In this document: piece after piece, positions 25,266-62,030 of the stretch
Position numbering within the stretch: the first letter of the stretch is position 1
How the letters are laid out: every line of letters starts with the position of its first letter
Assembly: GCA_025056255.1 (NCBI GenBank)
Contig: JANWVT010000001.1
Location: 186,001 to 250,000 of the forward strand
Reading direction: 5' to 3'
DNA length: 64,000 nt
Source of the DNA: Bernardetiaceae bacterium
Lineage (GTDB): Bacteria; Bacteroidota; Bacteroidia; Cytophagales; Thermoflexibacteraceae
The notes under the pieces: model-generated
Databases searched by the model: none
Seen by the model: only the letters and a program-made list of their open reading frames with translations
What the model was told of the DNA's origin: nothing
Program-made: the position numbers and the translations under genes

Positions 25266-25661
25266 TTAGTACACGTAACAAATTACCTCGCCCCCTACGT
25301 TAAGCTCTTTTGCTTCTTTGTCGGTGATGAGTCCTTTTGATGTAGAGATAATAGCAATACCAAGCCCATTCAAAACGCGGGGAAGCGCATTTGACTTAGT
25401 ATATTTACGCAAGCCGGGTTTACTTACGCGCTCCAGATGCACTATGGCAGGCTGTTTGGTTACAGGATGGTACTTGAGAGCGATTTTAATCACCCCTTGC
25501 GAACCTTGTTCCTCAAACTTATAGCTATGAATATAACCCTTGTTATATAACAGCTTGGTTATTTCCTTTTTCAACTTAGAAGCAGGAACTTCAACCACCC
25601 GATGATTAGCACGGATGGCATTTCTTAATCTTGTCAGATAGTCGGCTATTGGATCAGTCAT
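25266..25661 (-). CDS. rpsH: 30S ribosomal protein S8
   Basis: A 131-aa S8, a primary 16S binder and, in E. coli, the translational repressor of the spc operon. [16 protein letters not shown] opens the protein, [40 protein letters not shown] fills the C-terminal half, and it ends EVICYVY. A 91-bp gap separates it from rpsN. Confidence 0.98.
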
Positions 25662-27825: not shown

Positions 27826-28251
27826 TTATAAGTTCGCTTTCAACTCGTTTGCAACCACAAATTTGGTAATGATAGGCAGTTTTTGTGCGGCTAAGCGCAA
27901 AGCTTCCTGCGCAAGAGCAATATCAATACCACCTGCCTCAAACAAAATAGTGCCGGGCTTAACAGGCGCCACCCAATACTCGGGCGCTCCTTTACCTTTA
28001 CCCATGCGCACTTCGGCAGGCTTTTTAGTTACTGGCTTGTCGGGGAAGATACGAATCCAAACCTGCCCTTCGCGCTTCATAGCTCTGGTCATGGCAATAC
28101 GGGCTGCCTCTATTTGGCGGGCTGTAATCCATCCGGGCTCTAAGGCTTTAATACCAAACTCACCAAAAGCCAACGTGTGCCCGCGCTGTGCAATACCTTT
28201 TACACGCCCCTTTTGCTGCTTTCTAAATTTTGTCCTTTTCGGTTGTAACAT
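27826..28251 (-). CDS. rplP: 50S ribosomal protein L16
   Basis: A 141-aa L16, which lines the A-site corridor of the 50[56 protein letters not shown] and [23 protein letters not shown] are diagnostic. It is the first gene of this cluster here: rpsC, rplV, rpsS and the other normal upstream neighbours are absent, and a near-consensus promoter about 200 nt upstream drives it through a folded leader. Confidence 0.98.
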
Positions 28252-28449
28252 GGCTACAAACGTTTATCTGTTGCTTCAAACAGCAAACGCCGTTTGATAA
28301 AATTAAAACTTAACACCACAACCTTGCTTCTTGCAACAAGGCTTCTCAAAATCTGAGCGATAAGCTTGTAAACTACTAAAACTCGTGATACTTGACAGGA
28401 CTTTTGCTCGTGTCGCTTACAAGCAGAGTTTCCTATCGCTTGCGATTTG
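28252..28449 (-). promoter_or_regulatory. Structured ~200-nt 5' leader of the rplP operon
   Basis: The leader between the predicted start site (~28449) and the rplP ATG holds several inverted repeats. The largest pairs 28356-28362 with 28434-28440 (7 bp) and, nested inside, 28364-28371 with 28417-28424 (8 bp, perfect), separated by a 1x9 internal loop and closing a 45-nt apical region. Smaller hairpins are at 28322-28341 (7 bp) and 28284-28296 (5 bp, 3-nt loop). It has no ORF of note. Ribosomal operons often bind one of their own products in the leader, so an autoregulatory site is possible but unproven. The remainder to porX (28487-28694) shows nothing clear. Confidence 0.5.
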
Positions 28450-28455
28450 GGACTG

Positions 28456-28486
28456 CAAAGTTAGCACACTATTTATACTATCCAAA
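28456..28486 (-). promoter_or_regulatory. Near-consensus promoter of the rplP-rplQ ribosomal operon
   Basis: On the minus strand TTTG (28483-28486) is followed after exactly 19 nt by TAACTTTG (28456-28463), matching the Bacteroidota housekeeping form TTG-N19-TAnnTTTG. This marks an operon start directly upstream of rplP. Confidence 0.85.
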
Positions 28487-28694
28487 CTTTGGTGCAAATA
28501 TTTTCAAGAAAATGAGGCAGATAGCCTGCTTGTGCGTTTCTTTGAGGAAGAGCAGGGTGTTGCCTTATCCATCGTAAAGCTGCTTTTGTGTTAATTTAAC
28601 TGAAATAGCAGCTATTTGGCAATAGTTTTCGTATATGAAACAGAGCAGTGCCAAATGACTTTTTGTGCTTGGTTTAATCAAAACGTATTCTAAT

Positions 28695-30248
28695 ATGCAA
28701 CGGTACAATATTTTATGGGCAGACGACGAGATAGATTTACTCAAGCCTTATATTCTGTTCCTATCTCAAAAAGGATATGATGTTACCCCTGTAAATAGTG
28801 GTGCGGATGCGCTCGAAAAATTTAGTGAACAATCCTACGATGTTATCTTCCTCGACGAGAACATGCCCGGAATGAGTGGGTTGGAAATTCTTTCGCACAT
28901 CAAAACCATTCGCCCACACGTACCAGTGGTGATGATTACTAAAAACGAAGAAGAAAGCATCATGGAAGAAGCAATTGGTTCTAAGATAGACGACTACCTC
29001 ATCAAACCTGTTAATCCTAAACAAATTTTACTTTCTATTAAAAAAATTTTAGACCAAAAGCGCATTATTGGTGAAAAAACTACGCAAAGCTATCAACAAG
29101 AATTCCGCAATATTATGATGGCTTTCAGCGAAAGTATGAATCATAATGAATGGGCAGAAGTATATAAAAAACTGGTTTACTGGGAGTTAGAAATGGAGAA
29201 TGCCGGCAACCAAGGCATGACTGATGTGCTCAAAATGCAAAAAGAAGAAGCGAATAACAACTTTGCCAAGTTTATTATCCAAAACTATGAGCAATGGCTC
29301 AATAATCCCGATATTGACAAGCCACTGATGTCGCATCAACTGTTGCGCAAAAAACTATTCCCTAAAATCTCAGCAGAGCCAGTTTTCTTTTTTCTCATCG
29401 ATAACCTGCGCTATGACCAATGGAAAACAATAGAGCCATTAGTAGCAGAACAATTCAAAATAGAACAAGAAACTCTGTATTACTCTATTTTGCCCACCAC
29501 TACTGCCTTTGCCCGCAATGCAATTTTTGCAGGCGTGTTGCCTGTTGAGTTAGAAAAAATTATTCCTGATTTTTGGCAAGACGACGAAGATGAAGGGGCT
29601 AAAAACAATCATGAAAAAGATTTTCTACAATATCAGCTCAAAAAAAACCGATTAGAGCATATTAAGTTCAGCTATCACAAAATTATCCACCAAACTCAAA
29701 GCAAAGCACTGGTAGATAATTTCAACAATCTTTTACATAATCAGCTGAATGTGGTGGTGTATAACTTTGTAGACATGCTCTCCCACGCCCGCACCGATAC
29801 AGAAATGATTCGCGAACTTGCCCCAGACGAAGCTGCTTATCGTTTTATTACTAAATCATGGTTTTTGCACTCGCCAATGGTAGATATGCTGCGAAAGATT
29901 GCAGAAAAAAAATATCGTTTAATTATTACAACCGACCATGGCACCATTCGTACAACAAAGCCTTATAAAATTGTAGGTGACAGAAACACCAATACCAACT
30001 TGCGCTACAAACAAGGAAAAAATTTGGATTATGACAAAAAAAATGTATTTGTGTGCCGCAAGCCAGAATCTTTGCATCTGCCTAAGCACAACGTTTCTAC
30101 CTCCTATGTGTTTGCAACTGAAGATTATTTTTTTGCCTACCCAAATAACTACAACCACTACGTAAAATATTACAAAGATACTTTCCAACATGGAGGTATC
30201 TCATTAGAAGAAATGATTATACCATATGTAGAATTAATCCCTAAGTAG
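28695..30248 (+). CDS. porX: PorX-type response regulator with PglZ (alkaline phosphatase-fold) domain
   Basis: A 517-aa two-domain protein. The receiver domain (5-120) has the acidic pair ADDE at 9-12, phosphoacceptor Asp54 in IFLDENMPGMSG and the Lys in YLIKPVNPKQ. After a helical linker, a PglZ domain of the alkaline phosphatase superfamily follows (about 205-515), with metal-site segments FFLIDNLRYDQW, PTTTAFARNAIFAG, DMLSHARTD, TTDHGTIR and FQHGGISLEEMIIP. This layout matches PorX, which with the kinase PorY controls T9SS genes in Porphyromonas. Porphyromonas PorX has been reported to have phosphodiesterase activity on oligonucleotides. No kinase gene is adjacent. The ATG at 28695 begins the receiver domain directly. 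Confidence 0.94.
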   Translation: MQRYNILWADDEIDLLKPYILFLSQKGYDVTPVNSGADALEKFSEQSYDVIFLDENMPGMSGLEILSHIKTIRPHVPVVMITKNEEESIMEEAIGSKIDDYLIKPVNPKQILLSIKKILDQKRIIGEKTTQSYQQEFRNIMMAFSESMNHNEWAEVYKKLVYWELEMENAGNQGMTDVLKMQKEEANNNFAKFIIQNYEQWLNNPDIDKPLMSHQLLRKKLFPKISAEPVFFFLIDNLRYDQWKTIEPLVAEQFKIEQETLYYSILPTTTAFARNAIFAGVLPVELEKIIPDFWQDDEDEGAKNNHEKDFLQYQLKKNRLEHIKFSYHKIIHQTQSKALVDNFNNLLHNQLNVVVYNFVDMLSHARTDTEMIRELAPDEAAYRFITKSWFLHSPMVDMLRKIAEKKYRLIITTDHGTIRTTKPYKIVGDRNTNTNLRYKQGKNLDYDKKNVFVCRKPESLHLPKHNVSTSYVFATEDYFFAYPNNYNHYVKYYKDTFQHGGISLEEMIIPYVELIPK

Positions 30249-32122: not shown

Positions 32123-32152
32123 TAGAAAATTAGCTTACATACTTCATCAACA

Positions 32153-32327
32153 CCTTGCAGGTTTGGCAGAGATGCCAATTAAAAAGGAATCGTGTGCAAA
32201 TCGCGAGCTGTCCCGCAACTGTAAGTAACACCCAAAGGCTTTTGCCCTTAGCGTACCATTGCTCAAAAAAGTTTGAGTGAGAAGGTCGGCAGAAGCTGTT
32301 ACGAGCCAGGAGACTTGCCTGCAAAGG
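32153..32327 (+). promoter_or_regulatory. Cobalamin (B12) riboswitch aptamer
   Basis: Conserved blocks of the B12 aptamer appear in order: a P1 5' strand (CCTTGCAGG, 32153-32161), TTGGCAGAGATGCCAATT, AAAAAGGAAT, the core GAGCTGTCCCGCAACTGTAA, a variable middle, and the B12 box GAGCCAGGAGACTTGCC. The 3' P1 strand CCTGCAAAGG is at 32318-32327. Cobalamin binding is expected to switch off metE, because the B12-dependent synthase MetH can then replace it. This implies that the organism has metH and either makes or imports B12, neither of which is in the window. Confidence 0.95.
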
Positions 32328-32371
32328 ATTGACAAATGCCCTCGCGGATTGGGGTAAGCGTCAGGTCTGGT

Positions 32372-32421: not shown

Positions 32422-32503
32422 GTGCGTTCCTTTCTCTTTTTCCTCTCTGCGAGTGCATTGCGAAGTTTGGAGCGTATGGTTTCACTTTTTAAACCCTAAC
32501 GTA

Positions 32504-34810
32504 ATGCAAACGCACAACTTGGGCTATCCGCGGATTGGTAGTCAGCGTGAACTCAAAAAAGCCTGCGAAAGTTATTGGGCAGGTAAAATCTCTCAAAACG
32601 AACTGCTCGAAGCAGCCCGAAAAATCAGGGAGCAAAATTGGCAAACCCAACAAACCGCAGGTATTGGGTGGGTGCCTGTCAATGATTTTTCTTTCTACGA
32701 CCAAGTGTTGGATATGTCTTTGCTCTTGGGGGCTATCCCCGAACGCTATCAGCCTTTGCAAGAAAAATCCAATTTGGATTTGTACTTTGCGATGGCTCGT
32801 GGCTATCAGCAAGAGGGGCTTGACCTGAAAGCAATGGAAATGACCAAGTGGTTCGATACCAATTATCACTACATCGTTCCCGAATTTACCAAAAATCAAA
32901 CTTTTCGGCTTTTTGGTAGCAAAATCTTTGATGAATTTGCCGAAGCCCAGCAATTAGGTATCCAAGCCAAACCCGTGCTTATCGGAGCGGTTTCGTATTT
33001 ACTCTTAGGAAAAGAAAAAGAGGAGGGTTTCCACAAATTGGATTTGATAGATAAACTCCTGCCAGTTTATATCCAGATTTTGCAAAAATTGCAGGCACAA
33101 GGAGCCACTTGGGTACAAATAGATGAGCCATATTTGGCGATGGATTTGACCGACCGAGAACGCCAAGTTTTCTCAGAAGTCTATACCGAAATTCGCAAGC
33201 AAGTACCCGATTTGAAAATCGTTTTAGCCAACTACTTTGACTGCTACGGCGACAACCTGACCACCGCCCTGCAACTGCCCGTAGATGCCCTGCACTTGGA
33301 TTTGGTGCGTTGCCCCTCACAATTGGACGATGTGTTGGCTCATGCTCATCTAAGCACACAAATCTTGTCCTTGGGCGTAGTTGATGGCAGAAATATCTGG
33401 AAAAACGATTTTGAACAATCTTTGCAAATTATTCAAAAGGCTGTTGCAAAAATAGGCAAGCAAAGAGTTTGGCTCGCTCCTTCCTGCTCTTTATTGCATA
33501 GCCCCAACGACTTGGATTTTGAGCAAAAACTTAACCCTGAAATCAAGCAATGGCTGGCTTTTGCCAAACAAAAACTAAGCGAGGTGGTAACGCTCGCCCA
33601 ATTAGCCAATGGCGAAAACAGCCCCGCTTTGGAAAAGGCTTTGCAAGAAAACCGCCAAGCCCACCAAAACCGCCGAAGCTCTCCGCTCATTCACAATCCG
33701 AAGGTAAAGGAAAGGCTCAGTGCTGTTCAGGAAAGCGATTTTTCCAGAAAATCACCTTTTGCGGTACGTCAGCGATTGCAAAAAGAGCGTTTCAAATTAC
33801 CTCTGTTCCCTACTACTACCATTGGTTCGTTTCCGCAAACTACCGATGTACGCCAACTAAGGGCAAGGCTCAAAAAAGGCGAACTCACCCAAGCCCAATA
33901 CGAAGCCGAAATAGAAAAAGCAATCATTGAGGCTATTCGCTGGCAGGAAGAGGTAGGCATTGATGTATTGGTACATGGCGAATTTGAACGCAACGATATG
34001 GTAGAATATTTCGGCGAACTTTTAGACGGCTTTGCCTTTACCGAAAACGGCTGGGTACAGAGCTACGGTAGCCGTTGCGTAAAGCCGCCCATTATTTTTG
34101 GCGATGTAGCTCGCAGCCAAGACCTTTCGGTGCGATGGAGCAGTTTTGCCCAAAAGCACACCCAAAAACTGATGAAAGGTATGCTTACCGGTCCTGTTAC
34201 GATTTTGCAATGGTCTTTTGTACGCAACGACCAGCCTCGCCGCGATACAGCCTTCCAGATTGCCCTTGCCATTCGCGACGAGGTAGTAGCCTTAGAGCAA
34301 GCGGGCATCAAGGTAATTCAGATTGATGAGCCTGCTATCCGTGAAGGGCTACCTCTCCGCCGAAAAGACTGGGCAGACTACTTAGAGTGGGCTGTAAAAG
34401 CCTTCCGCCTCTCGGCAAGTGGCGTAGCAGACCAGACGCAAATCCATACGCATATGTGCTATTCGGAGTTTAACGACATCATAGAGCATATTGCCGCCAT
34501 GGATGCCGATGTAATTACCATCGAGACCTCACGCTCGGAAATGGAATTGTTGGAGGCTTTCGTAGATTTCAAATATCCTAACGAAATCGGACCCGGCGTG
34601 TACGACATACATTCGCCTCGTGTGCCGAGCGTAGCCGAAATAAAACACCTGCTCCACAAAGCAGCGGAAGTACTTCCCATAGAAAACATCTGGGTAAATC
34701 CGGATTGTGGCTTGAAAACTCGCCGCTGGGAGGAAACCAAAGTGGCTCTACAAAACATGGTACAAGCCGCCCGCGAGTTGCGTGAAGAGGTGGGTGTAGA
34801 GAAGGTTTAA
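32504..34810 (+). CDS. metE: Cobalamin-independent methionine synthase
   Basis: A 768-aa MetE that transfers the methyl group of 5-methyltetrahydropteroyl-polyglutamate to homocysteine. The N-terminal barrel (MQTHNLGYPRIGSQRELKKA to about 400) is followed by the catalytic barrel from about 435 (LPLFPTTTIGSFPQT). Zinc ligands are visible as His and Cys in IHTHMCYSEF, Glu in TIETSRSEMELL and Cys in VNPDCGLKTR. The ATG at 32504 fits the conserved N-terminus; a longer frame from 32453 lacks homology. It is preceded by a B12 riboswitch, so it should be expressed when cobalamin is scarce. It stands alone, with no metF beside it. Confidence 0.97.
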   Translation: MQTHNLGYPRIGSQRELKKACESYWAGKISQNELLEAARKIREQNWQTQQTAGIGWVPVNDFSFYDQVLDMSLLLGAIPERYQPLQEKSNLDLYFAMARGYQQEGLDLKAMEMTKWFDTNYHYIVPEFTKNQTFRLFGSKIFDEFAEAQQLGIQAKPVLIGAVSYLLLGKEKEEGFHKLDLIDKLLPVYIQILQKLQAQGATWVQIDEPYLAMDLTDRERQVFSEVYTEIRKQVPDLKIVLANYFDCYGDNLTTALQLPVDALHLDLVRCPSQLDDVLAHAHLSTQILSLGVVDGRNIWKNDFEQSLQIIQKAVAKIGKQRVWLAPSCSLLHSPNDLDFEQKLNPEIKQWLAFAKQKLSEVVTLAQLANGENSPALEKALQENRQAHQNRRSSPLIHNPKVKERLSAVQESDFSRKSPFAVRQRLQKERFKLPLFPTTTIGSFPQTTDVRQLRARLKKGELTQAQYEAEIEKAIIEAIRWQEEVGIDVLVHGEFERNDMVEYFGELLDGFAFTENGWVQSYGSRCVKPPIIFGDVARSQDLSVRWSSFAQKHTQKLMKGMLTGPVTILQWSFVRNDQPRRDTAFQIALAIRDEVVALEQAGIKVIQIDEPAIREGLPLRRKDWADYLEWAVKAFRLSASGVADQTQIHTHMCYSEFNDIIEHIAAMDADVITIETSRSEMELLEAFVDFKYPNEIGPGVYDIHSPRVPSVAEIKHLLHKAAEVLPIENIWVNPDCGLKTRRWEETKVALQNMVQAARELREEVGVEKV

Positions 34811-61664: not shown

Positions 61665-62030
61665 CAAATTAGGATGCCCCACTTCAATCAAAACCAAACA
61701 ACCCTACAAGGGCTGTTTGTGAGACATAAGCAACAGCAGCTGGGTTACCTCTGGCTAAGCACAACAAGCCAACTGAGCACTTTCGGGGCTTGATGAGCAG
61801 AGCCTCGTGGCAGCTGGTAAATAAACAATCACCAAACTGTGCAATCATGAAACACTACCCAAGCTCATAAAGGAAAAACTACTACCTCACCATGCTGCGG
61901 CGCTTTGCCAGTAGCAGGAAATATAGACACTATCTTCAAACTGAGTATAAACATTGGAATAGAGGCAATTACCCCTACACAAACAAACTGCCCAAATGGA
62001 CAACCGGTAGGAAACTGTTTGAAAAAAGCA
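61665..62030. other. ~365-bp intergenic stretch upstream of the purF-like gene
   Basis: No ORF with clear coding signs and no RNA gene was recognised. It ends at a -7 element. A small inverted repeat near 61706-61723 has no T-tract. Confidence 0.5.

Follow-up and report, generated by a model that had tools for sequence, protein, structure and literature searches.

Ribosomal protein S8 of E. coli regulates its own synthesis through an mRNA site that mimics 16S rRNA, and 1S03 is, we take it, the structure of the E. coli S8-mRNA complex. The 16S rRNA of E. coli carries AAGTC at 595-599 and GATACT at 639-644, and in MG1655 rplE, counted from the start of the gene, GAAACU lies at +6 to +11 and AAGUC at +80 to +84. 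According to the accessible part of PMC4176348, the S8 core of 16S rRNA contains the triples A595-(A596-U644) and (G597-C643)-U641 together with the invariant A642, the same element occurs in the spc mRNA with the triple A+80-(A+81-U+11), and Tyr and STS residues of S8 touch the core. In E. coli the site is situated where rplE, third among the spc genes, begins, and there S8 blocks rplE and destabilises the mRNA upstream (PMC10931766, a 2024 review, accessible part). For the Bacteroidetes, ribosomal protein leaders including L13, S4 and S15 motifs have been described (Eckert and Weinberg 2020, PMC7247131, accessible part). In the window, the 64,000-nucleotide stretch of DNA analysed here, we consider it quite probable that S8 represses its own synthesis from the head of a split-off operon and not from rplE; binding, repression and its direction we infer. 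The operon, its leader and its promoter are laid out as follows (window coordinates).

25266 to 25661, minus strand: rpsH (S8), eighth gene of the run that begins with rplP, the proposed repressor
27826 to 28251, minus strand: rplP (L16), which heads the split-off operon, with its start codon at 28251
28252 to 28455, minus strand: leader of the rplP-headed operon, 204 nt, from sequence and folding
28456 to 28486, minus strand: Bacteroidota-type promoter TTTG-N19-TAACTTTG, from direct reading of the sequence and the same layout in related leaders

The gene run, named from translations, reads rplP, rpmC, rpsQ, rplN, rplX, rplE, rpsN, rpsH, rplF and more, with rpsH on the same strand and in the same run as the leader, and the genes from rplP to rpsH presumably share one transcript. 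No rpsC stands upstream of this rplP; the gene was found on the same contig at a distance of about 184 kb. No rpsC match was detected 5' of rplP in three families, f1 (the window's own, 13 genomes), f17 (13 genomes) and f2 (9 genomes), within an upstream stretch that was mostly 2 kb and only 184 nt in G004, 540 nt in G058 and 1,185 nt in G114. A search beyond the locus, which covered f1 only, located rpsC elsewhere in 13/13 genomes. An S8 match was present in all 34 split loci other than the window. At 102 non-split loci with operon context the rpsC match ended 24-351 nt 5' of rplP. These comprised 80 named loci, being the 80 listed among 582 named matches, and 22 loci from other families of the window's order, and at least two of the 102 (L067 and L198) may be one genome. 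None of the 80 listed was closely related to the window, the best of them reaching 88% in L16 compared with 95-98% within its genus. In a tree built from eight concatenated ribosomal proteins of 82 loci, the 35 split loci formed a single clade with a support of 0.998, f2 nested within f1, and Reichenbachiella and Hymenobacter (Cytophagales), which were among the named loci, were placed amid the families of the window's order. Because the split loci make one clade, the break of the S10-spc cluster is most simply a one-time event. At L205 (G000:C19:28000-41000) the S10 half was reduced, with rplB-rpsS-rplV-rpsC and no recognisable rplC, rplD or rplW ahead (frames read by eye), and a terminator-like hairpin was seen 3' of rpsC; the cluster seems to have broken at more than one place there.

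A promoter had been proposed ahead of rplP in a preliminary description of this DNA, and reading the minus strand at 28486-28456 confirmed it, with TTTG at 28486-28483, a spacer of 19 nt and TAACTTTG at 28463-28456. Transcription would be expected to start a few nt 3' of the promoter, near 28451. A layout of TTG, 16-20 nt and TAnnTTTG was found directly 5' of the conserved hairpin described below in 33/33 related leaders with upstream DNA, 25 of which had the full TTTG upstream box, and in all 33 the S8-like core began 12-28 nt past the -7 box (52 nt in one case). The preliminary claim of a structured leader of about 200 nt was also borne out, with a predicted fold of -56.2 kcal/mol for the 204 nt (z -2.40) that was equalled by 4/200 shuffles. 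When the window was scanned with Rfam 15 the leader had no family match at gathering score, and a relaxed threshold gave a single match to the leader, far under its cut-off and ascribed to chance. The E. coli spc region likewise matched no family at cut-off, suggesting that Rfam 15 has no S8-site family. A short ORF seen by eye in one f17 leader was dropped as its frame was broken in the next leader read. On the other side of the leader the divergent neighbour at 28665-30248 (plus strand) has a response-regulator-like N-terminal start, its product presumably resembling PorX of the type IX secretion system, and a similar gene was seen by eye beside rplP in G001 and G002. Further along the window a cobalamin riboswitch (32142-32336, plus strand, 106 bits) lies just 5' of an ORF at 32453-34810 that by our own reading has the appearance of a MetE-type methionine synthase.

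The 5' end of the leader holds a hairpin of 42 nt that was absent from the structures listed in the preliminary description, in its typical form 5'-GGANACU-stem-loop-stem-AAGUCC.

28395 to 28436, minus strand: candidate S8-site hairpin, made up of an outer stem, the S8 core, an inner stem and a loop, from model match, occurrence and covariation
28427 to 28432, minus strand: 5' strand of the S8 core, GAAACU, equivalent to 16S 639-644
28399 to 28403, minus strand: 3' strand of the S8 core, AAGUC, equivalent to 16S 595-599

Folded alone, the hairpin reached -12.9 kcal/mol (z -3.37) and 0/200 shuffles were as good. Thirteen f1 leaders were chosen by their position before rplP and aligned without structure, and all 13 carried 5'-RGANACU-stem-loop-stem-NAGUCY close to the leader 5' end, the outer pair being GG/CC in 12 and AG/CU in G008. 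In this alignment the 14 proposed pairs held in 94.5% of cells and 9/14 had changed on both sides; 0/500 shuffles were as good on any of five measures, and pairing fell to 35-44% when the partner strand was slid as a control. Across the 34 sites described below, in an alignment fitted to the model, 93.6% of cells were paired and 10/14 pairs showed two-sided changes, again with 0/500 shuffles as good. In both samples the stems flank the core on both sides and are kept by compensatory change. The pair adjoining the core (594/645-like) was non-standard in 22 of 32 distinct rows. The loop is small in most species. Six f2 loci of genus g26 (L168, L169, L172, L204, L209 and L210) were observed to have long leaders, 459-553 nt, in which the site occupies the far 5' end, and most of these sites have long loops.

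The letters of the hairpin core, GANACU/AAGUC, are those of the core that uS8 binds in helix 21 of 16S rRNA. In all 13 f1 leaders the equivalents of 16S positions 639, 640, 642, 643, 644, 596, 597, 598 and 599 were invariant. The same nine positions were invariant in 34/34 sites, with 641 being A in 17 and U in 17 and 595 being A in 31 and C in 3; outside f1 this invariance is partly built in because 12 of the sites came from the covariance model R1 and 9 from a descriptor that demands these letters. The likeness to helix 21 consists in AAGUC paired with GAUACU and the invariant A642, but AAGUC stands 5' of GAUACU in 16S rRNA and 3' of its partner in the leader hairpin of the clade. The strand order in the window, GAAACU (28432-28427) followed by AAGUC (28403-28399), is that of the E. 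coli spc site. A relaxed descriptor applied to E. coli found the spc site as its sole sense-strand match in 6.5 kb, and a wider model scored the spc site at 6.8 bits (E 2.7), where it ranked first. In an alignment with E. coli S8, the S8 of the window kept the Tyr and the STS motif. 16S rRNA was sought in the 13 f1 genomes and found in 0/13, with matches in 9/14 controls. S8 was one of four ligands proposed in the preliminary description, next to L16, L4 and S4, and the hairpin core fits it. That one of the other three or another operon product binds the leader, with the S8-like core a coincidence, we regard as highly unlikely. Such a reading could draw on rplP heading the operon and on the earlier listing of L16, L4 and S4, but the leaders follow the S8 core position by position, both in the letters that are fixed and in the freedom at 641 (13/13 unselected leaders, 34/34 sites), and the S8 mRNA site of E. 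coli has identical letters in identical order, in a comparison that was made with S8 sites.

The preliminary description had centred on a nested stem of 7+8 bp spanning 28356-28440, whose outer arms are the following.

28434 to 28440, minus strand: 5' arm of the long-range stem, AGCGAUA, with a complement in 5/13 f1 leaders
28356 to 28362, minus strand: 3' arm of the long-range stem, UAUCGCU

The outer 7 bp (AGCGAUA/UAUCGCU, 28440-28434 with 28362-28356) proved real, being kept in 5/13 f1 leaders with wobbles allowed, but the inner 8 bp (GCUUGUAA/UUACAAGC) were complete in the window alone (1/13 f1 leaders), were not conserved, and use bases of the conserved S8-core hairpin. Conservation of pairing in relatives was thus found, but for the hairpin at 28436-28395 and not for the inner stem that had been put forward. 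The fold of lowest energy for the naked leader makes use of the outer arm and competes with the S8 hairpin, and the stem described earlier may therefore be one state of a switch. A reading in which this long-range stem is itself functional, as an unknown riboswitch or stabiliser, with the S8 hairpin incidental, would build on that favoured fold and on the 5/13 leaders that keep the outer arm. We judge it very improbable, as the inner stem is complete in 1/13 leaders and as the hairpin is identical to that of the genus mate G002 in 33/36 aligned columns but the downstream leader in only 54/157.

To map the site we used R1, which was built from the 13 f1 leaders only, window included; the window hairpin scored 56.7 bits as one of its 13 source sequences. 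In 146 genomes of the order R1 gave 22 matches at E 1.2e-7 or better, in 10 f1 genomes (all f1 in the set), 11/13 f17 genomes and 1/9 f2 genomes, 12 of them thus beyond f1, and by coordinates all 22 were directly 5' of rplP. Six further genomes of this set matched weakly and elsewhere (E 0.007 to 0.095). A letter-and-stem descriptor found the site in 33/35 split loci and a looser look added L170, giving 34/35; R1 run on the loci themselves recovered the same 34 and a weak extra match in L169 (E 0.58). The one split locus that had no site, G101 (L166, f17), has a leader of some 30 nt by eye with the promoter nearly atop rplP, an apparent loss of the entire leader. At the 102 loci where rpsC adjoins rplP, the descriptor found the site within 600 nt 5' of rplP in 0/102. 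The strict descriptor matched in 2/102 non-split loci (Chryseobacterium, L105 and L108), about 2.48 kb 3' of the rplP start, against a background of 1.4 matches per full 137-locus set in shuffles and 0 on the reverse strand; without the outer pair and with 7 inner pairs it matched nothing in the 102. The weak match in L105 and L108 overlaps a strong hairpin within the operon and may be chance. On the operon loci, R2 gave nothing in the 102 non-split loci and matched only the window and, by chance, window position 61713. R1 on the window and the 80 named loci found the window alone, the next best match having E 2.5. Among the matches listed for 396 genomes of the class, R1 gave the window and one chance-looking match in a non-ribosomal region, in a scan that scored fewer candidates per genome than the 146-genome scan (16 vs 44). 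R2 on 392 genomes of the phylum had no match and missed the window's own site too, and in 27 genomes of the split clade it recovered 9/26 known sites. The negative results therefore rest on the 102 operon loci read directly and on R2 there, not on the 396- and 392-genome scans. The preliminary description had suggested that a new ribosomal protein binding site arose with the split of the cluster. Site and split do mark the same clade, so this part of the suggestion fits, but the stem offered as the site was mostly the wrong structure.

S8 output exceeding its uptake by new 16S rRNA would leave free S8. Bound to the 5'-terminal hairpin of the rplP-rpmC-rpsQ-rplN-rplX-rplE-rpsN-rpsH... mRNA, this S8 would lower expression of the operon, rpsH included. 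The site was probably gained on, or near to, the branch along which the S10-spc cluster came apart between rpsC and rplP, and the detached unit would therefore be controlled from its new head, unlike the rplE start used in E. coli. The site lies within 541 to 73 nt upstream of the rplP start codon, its 3' end at 73-469 nt, and because it ends at least 73 nt 5' of the start codon a simple block of ribosome entry is unlikely. Whether the core was favoured or forbidden, the openness predicted for the start region shifted by no more than about 0.07 in 18/19 representatives. The exception, L168, rose from 0.40 to 0.59, which is opposite to repression. Sequestration of the start region through S8 binding was thus unsupported by the openness predictions for the 19 representatives. 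The step from binding to repression might instead involve refolding of the RNA, altered mRNA decay or, in some species, transcription that ends early.

The protein-free window leader favours another fold, with a mean probability of 0.05 for the core pairs and a forced hairpin about 3 kcal/mol worse. A two-state switch, in which the 5' strand of the hairpin pairs either internally or with a downstream complement and S8 selects the hairpin, would be a variant of S8 control and no alternative to it; we hold it to be possible but somewhat unlikely. For the 5' strand a downstream partner of unusual strength (p<0.05) was found in 15/34 leaders, as against 3/34 for the 3' strand, and in 19 representatives the leaders' own pairs outranked swapped pairs, with mean ranks of 0.30 and 0.27 vs 0.5 expected. 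In genus g36 the partner is AGUUCUCCGAG (or a close variant) against CUCGGGAAACU. However, 19/34 leaders had no such excess, many lineages lacked the effect, and related leaders were counted repeatedly in these figures. AGTTT or AGTTC was present downstream in 14/17 GAAACU leaders, yet also in 12/17 GATACU leaders, AGTAT was present in 9/17 GATACU and 4/17 GAAACU leaders, and predicted folding showed no coupling to the start codon. A long-range switch is therefore only partly supported as the route from binding to repression.

Early termination of transcription within the leader upon S8 binding appears distinctly improbable. Four representatives (L188, L189, L191 and L195) have a hairpin of at most -9.0 kcal/mol close to a T-run, 38-66 nt 5' of rplP, and L171 has a weaker one, for a total of 5/19, with the T-run directly after the stem only in L189 and L191. 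The other 14 of the 19 had no such hairpin, the window leader among them, and termination was rejected as a common mechanism for this reason.

Repression by S8 from the operon head resembles the E. coli spc system in the core letters GAAACU/AAGUC, in their strand order, in S8 being encoded in its own operon and in the mimicry of helix 21. It differs in place and in phylum: the E. coli site belongs to the beginning of rplE, that of the window's clade to the 5' end of a leader, 541-73 nt 5' of rplP. Over the stretch of the window that runs from rplP to a point 4.2 kb downstream, the E. coli-type location at rplE included, the descriptor had no match. With the leaders of PMC7247131 the site shares the phylum and the form of a cis-regulatory leader of a ribosomal protein operon, but the covered part of the motif table in that paper has no S8 ligand, and its main text has 0 occurrences of rplP, rplN and 'S8 r-leader' and 2 of 'protein S8'. 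No description of the S8 leader site of this clade was found in the openly licensed PubMed Central papers searched; as far as these show, what is new is its place, heading an operon that has become detached, together with its lineage and its connection with operon fission. A gain by the detached half, when the cluster broke, of an S8-operated switch at the very 5' end of its transcript, independent of the gain in Gammaproteobacteria, in which core and strand order converged and control is exerted by long-range refolding instead of a start-codon block, is rather unlikely in our estimate.

Together these data provide a concrete, testable candidate S8 site in a phylum distant from E. coli. They also connect the arrival of this putative feedback site with a single event, the breaking apart of a gene cluster that is widely conserved, and would open regulation after operon fission to experiment.
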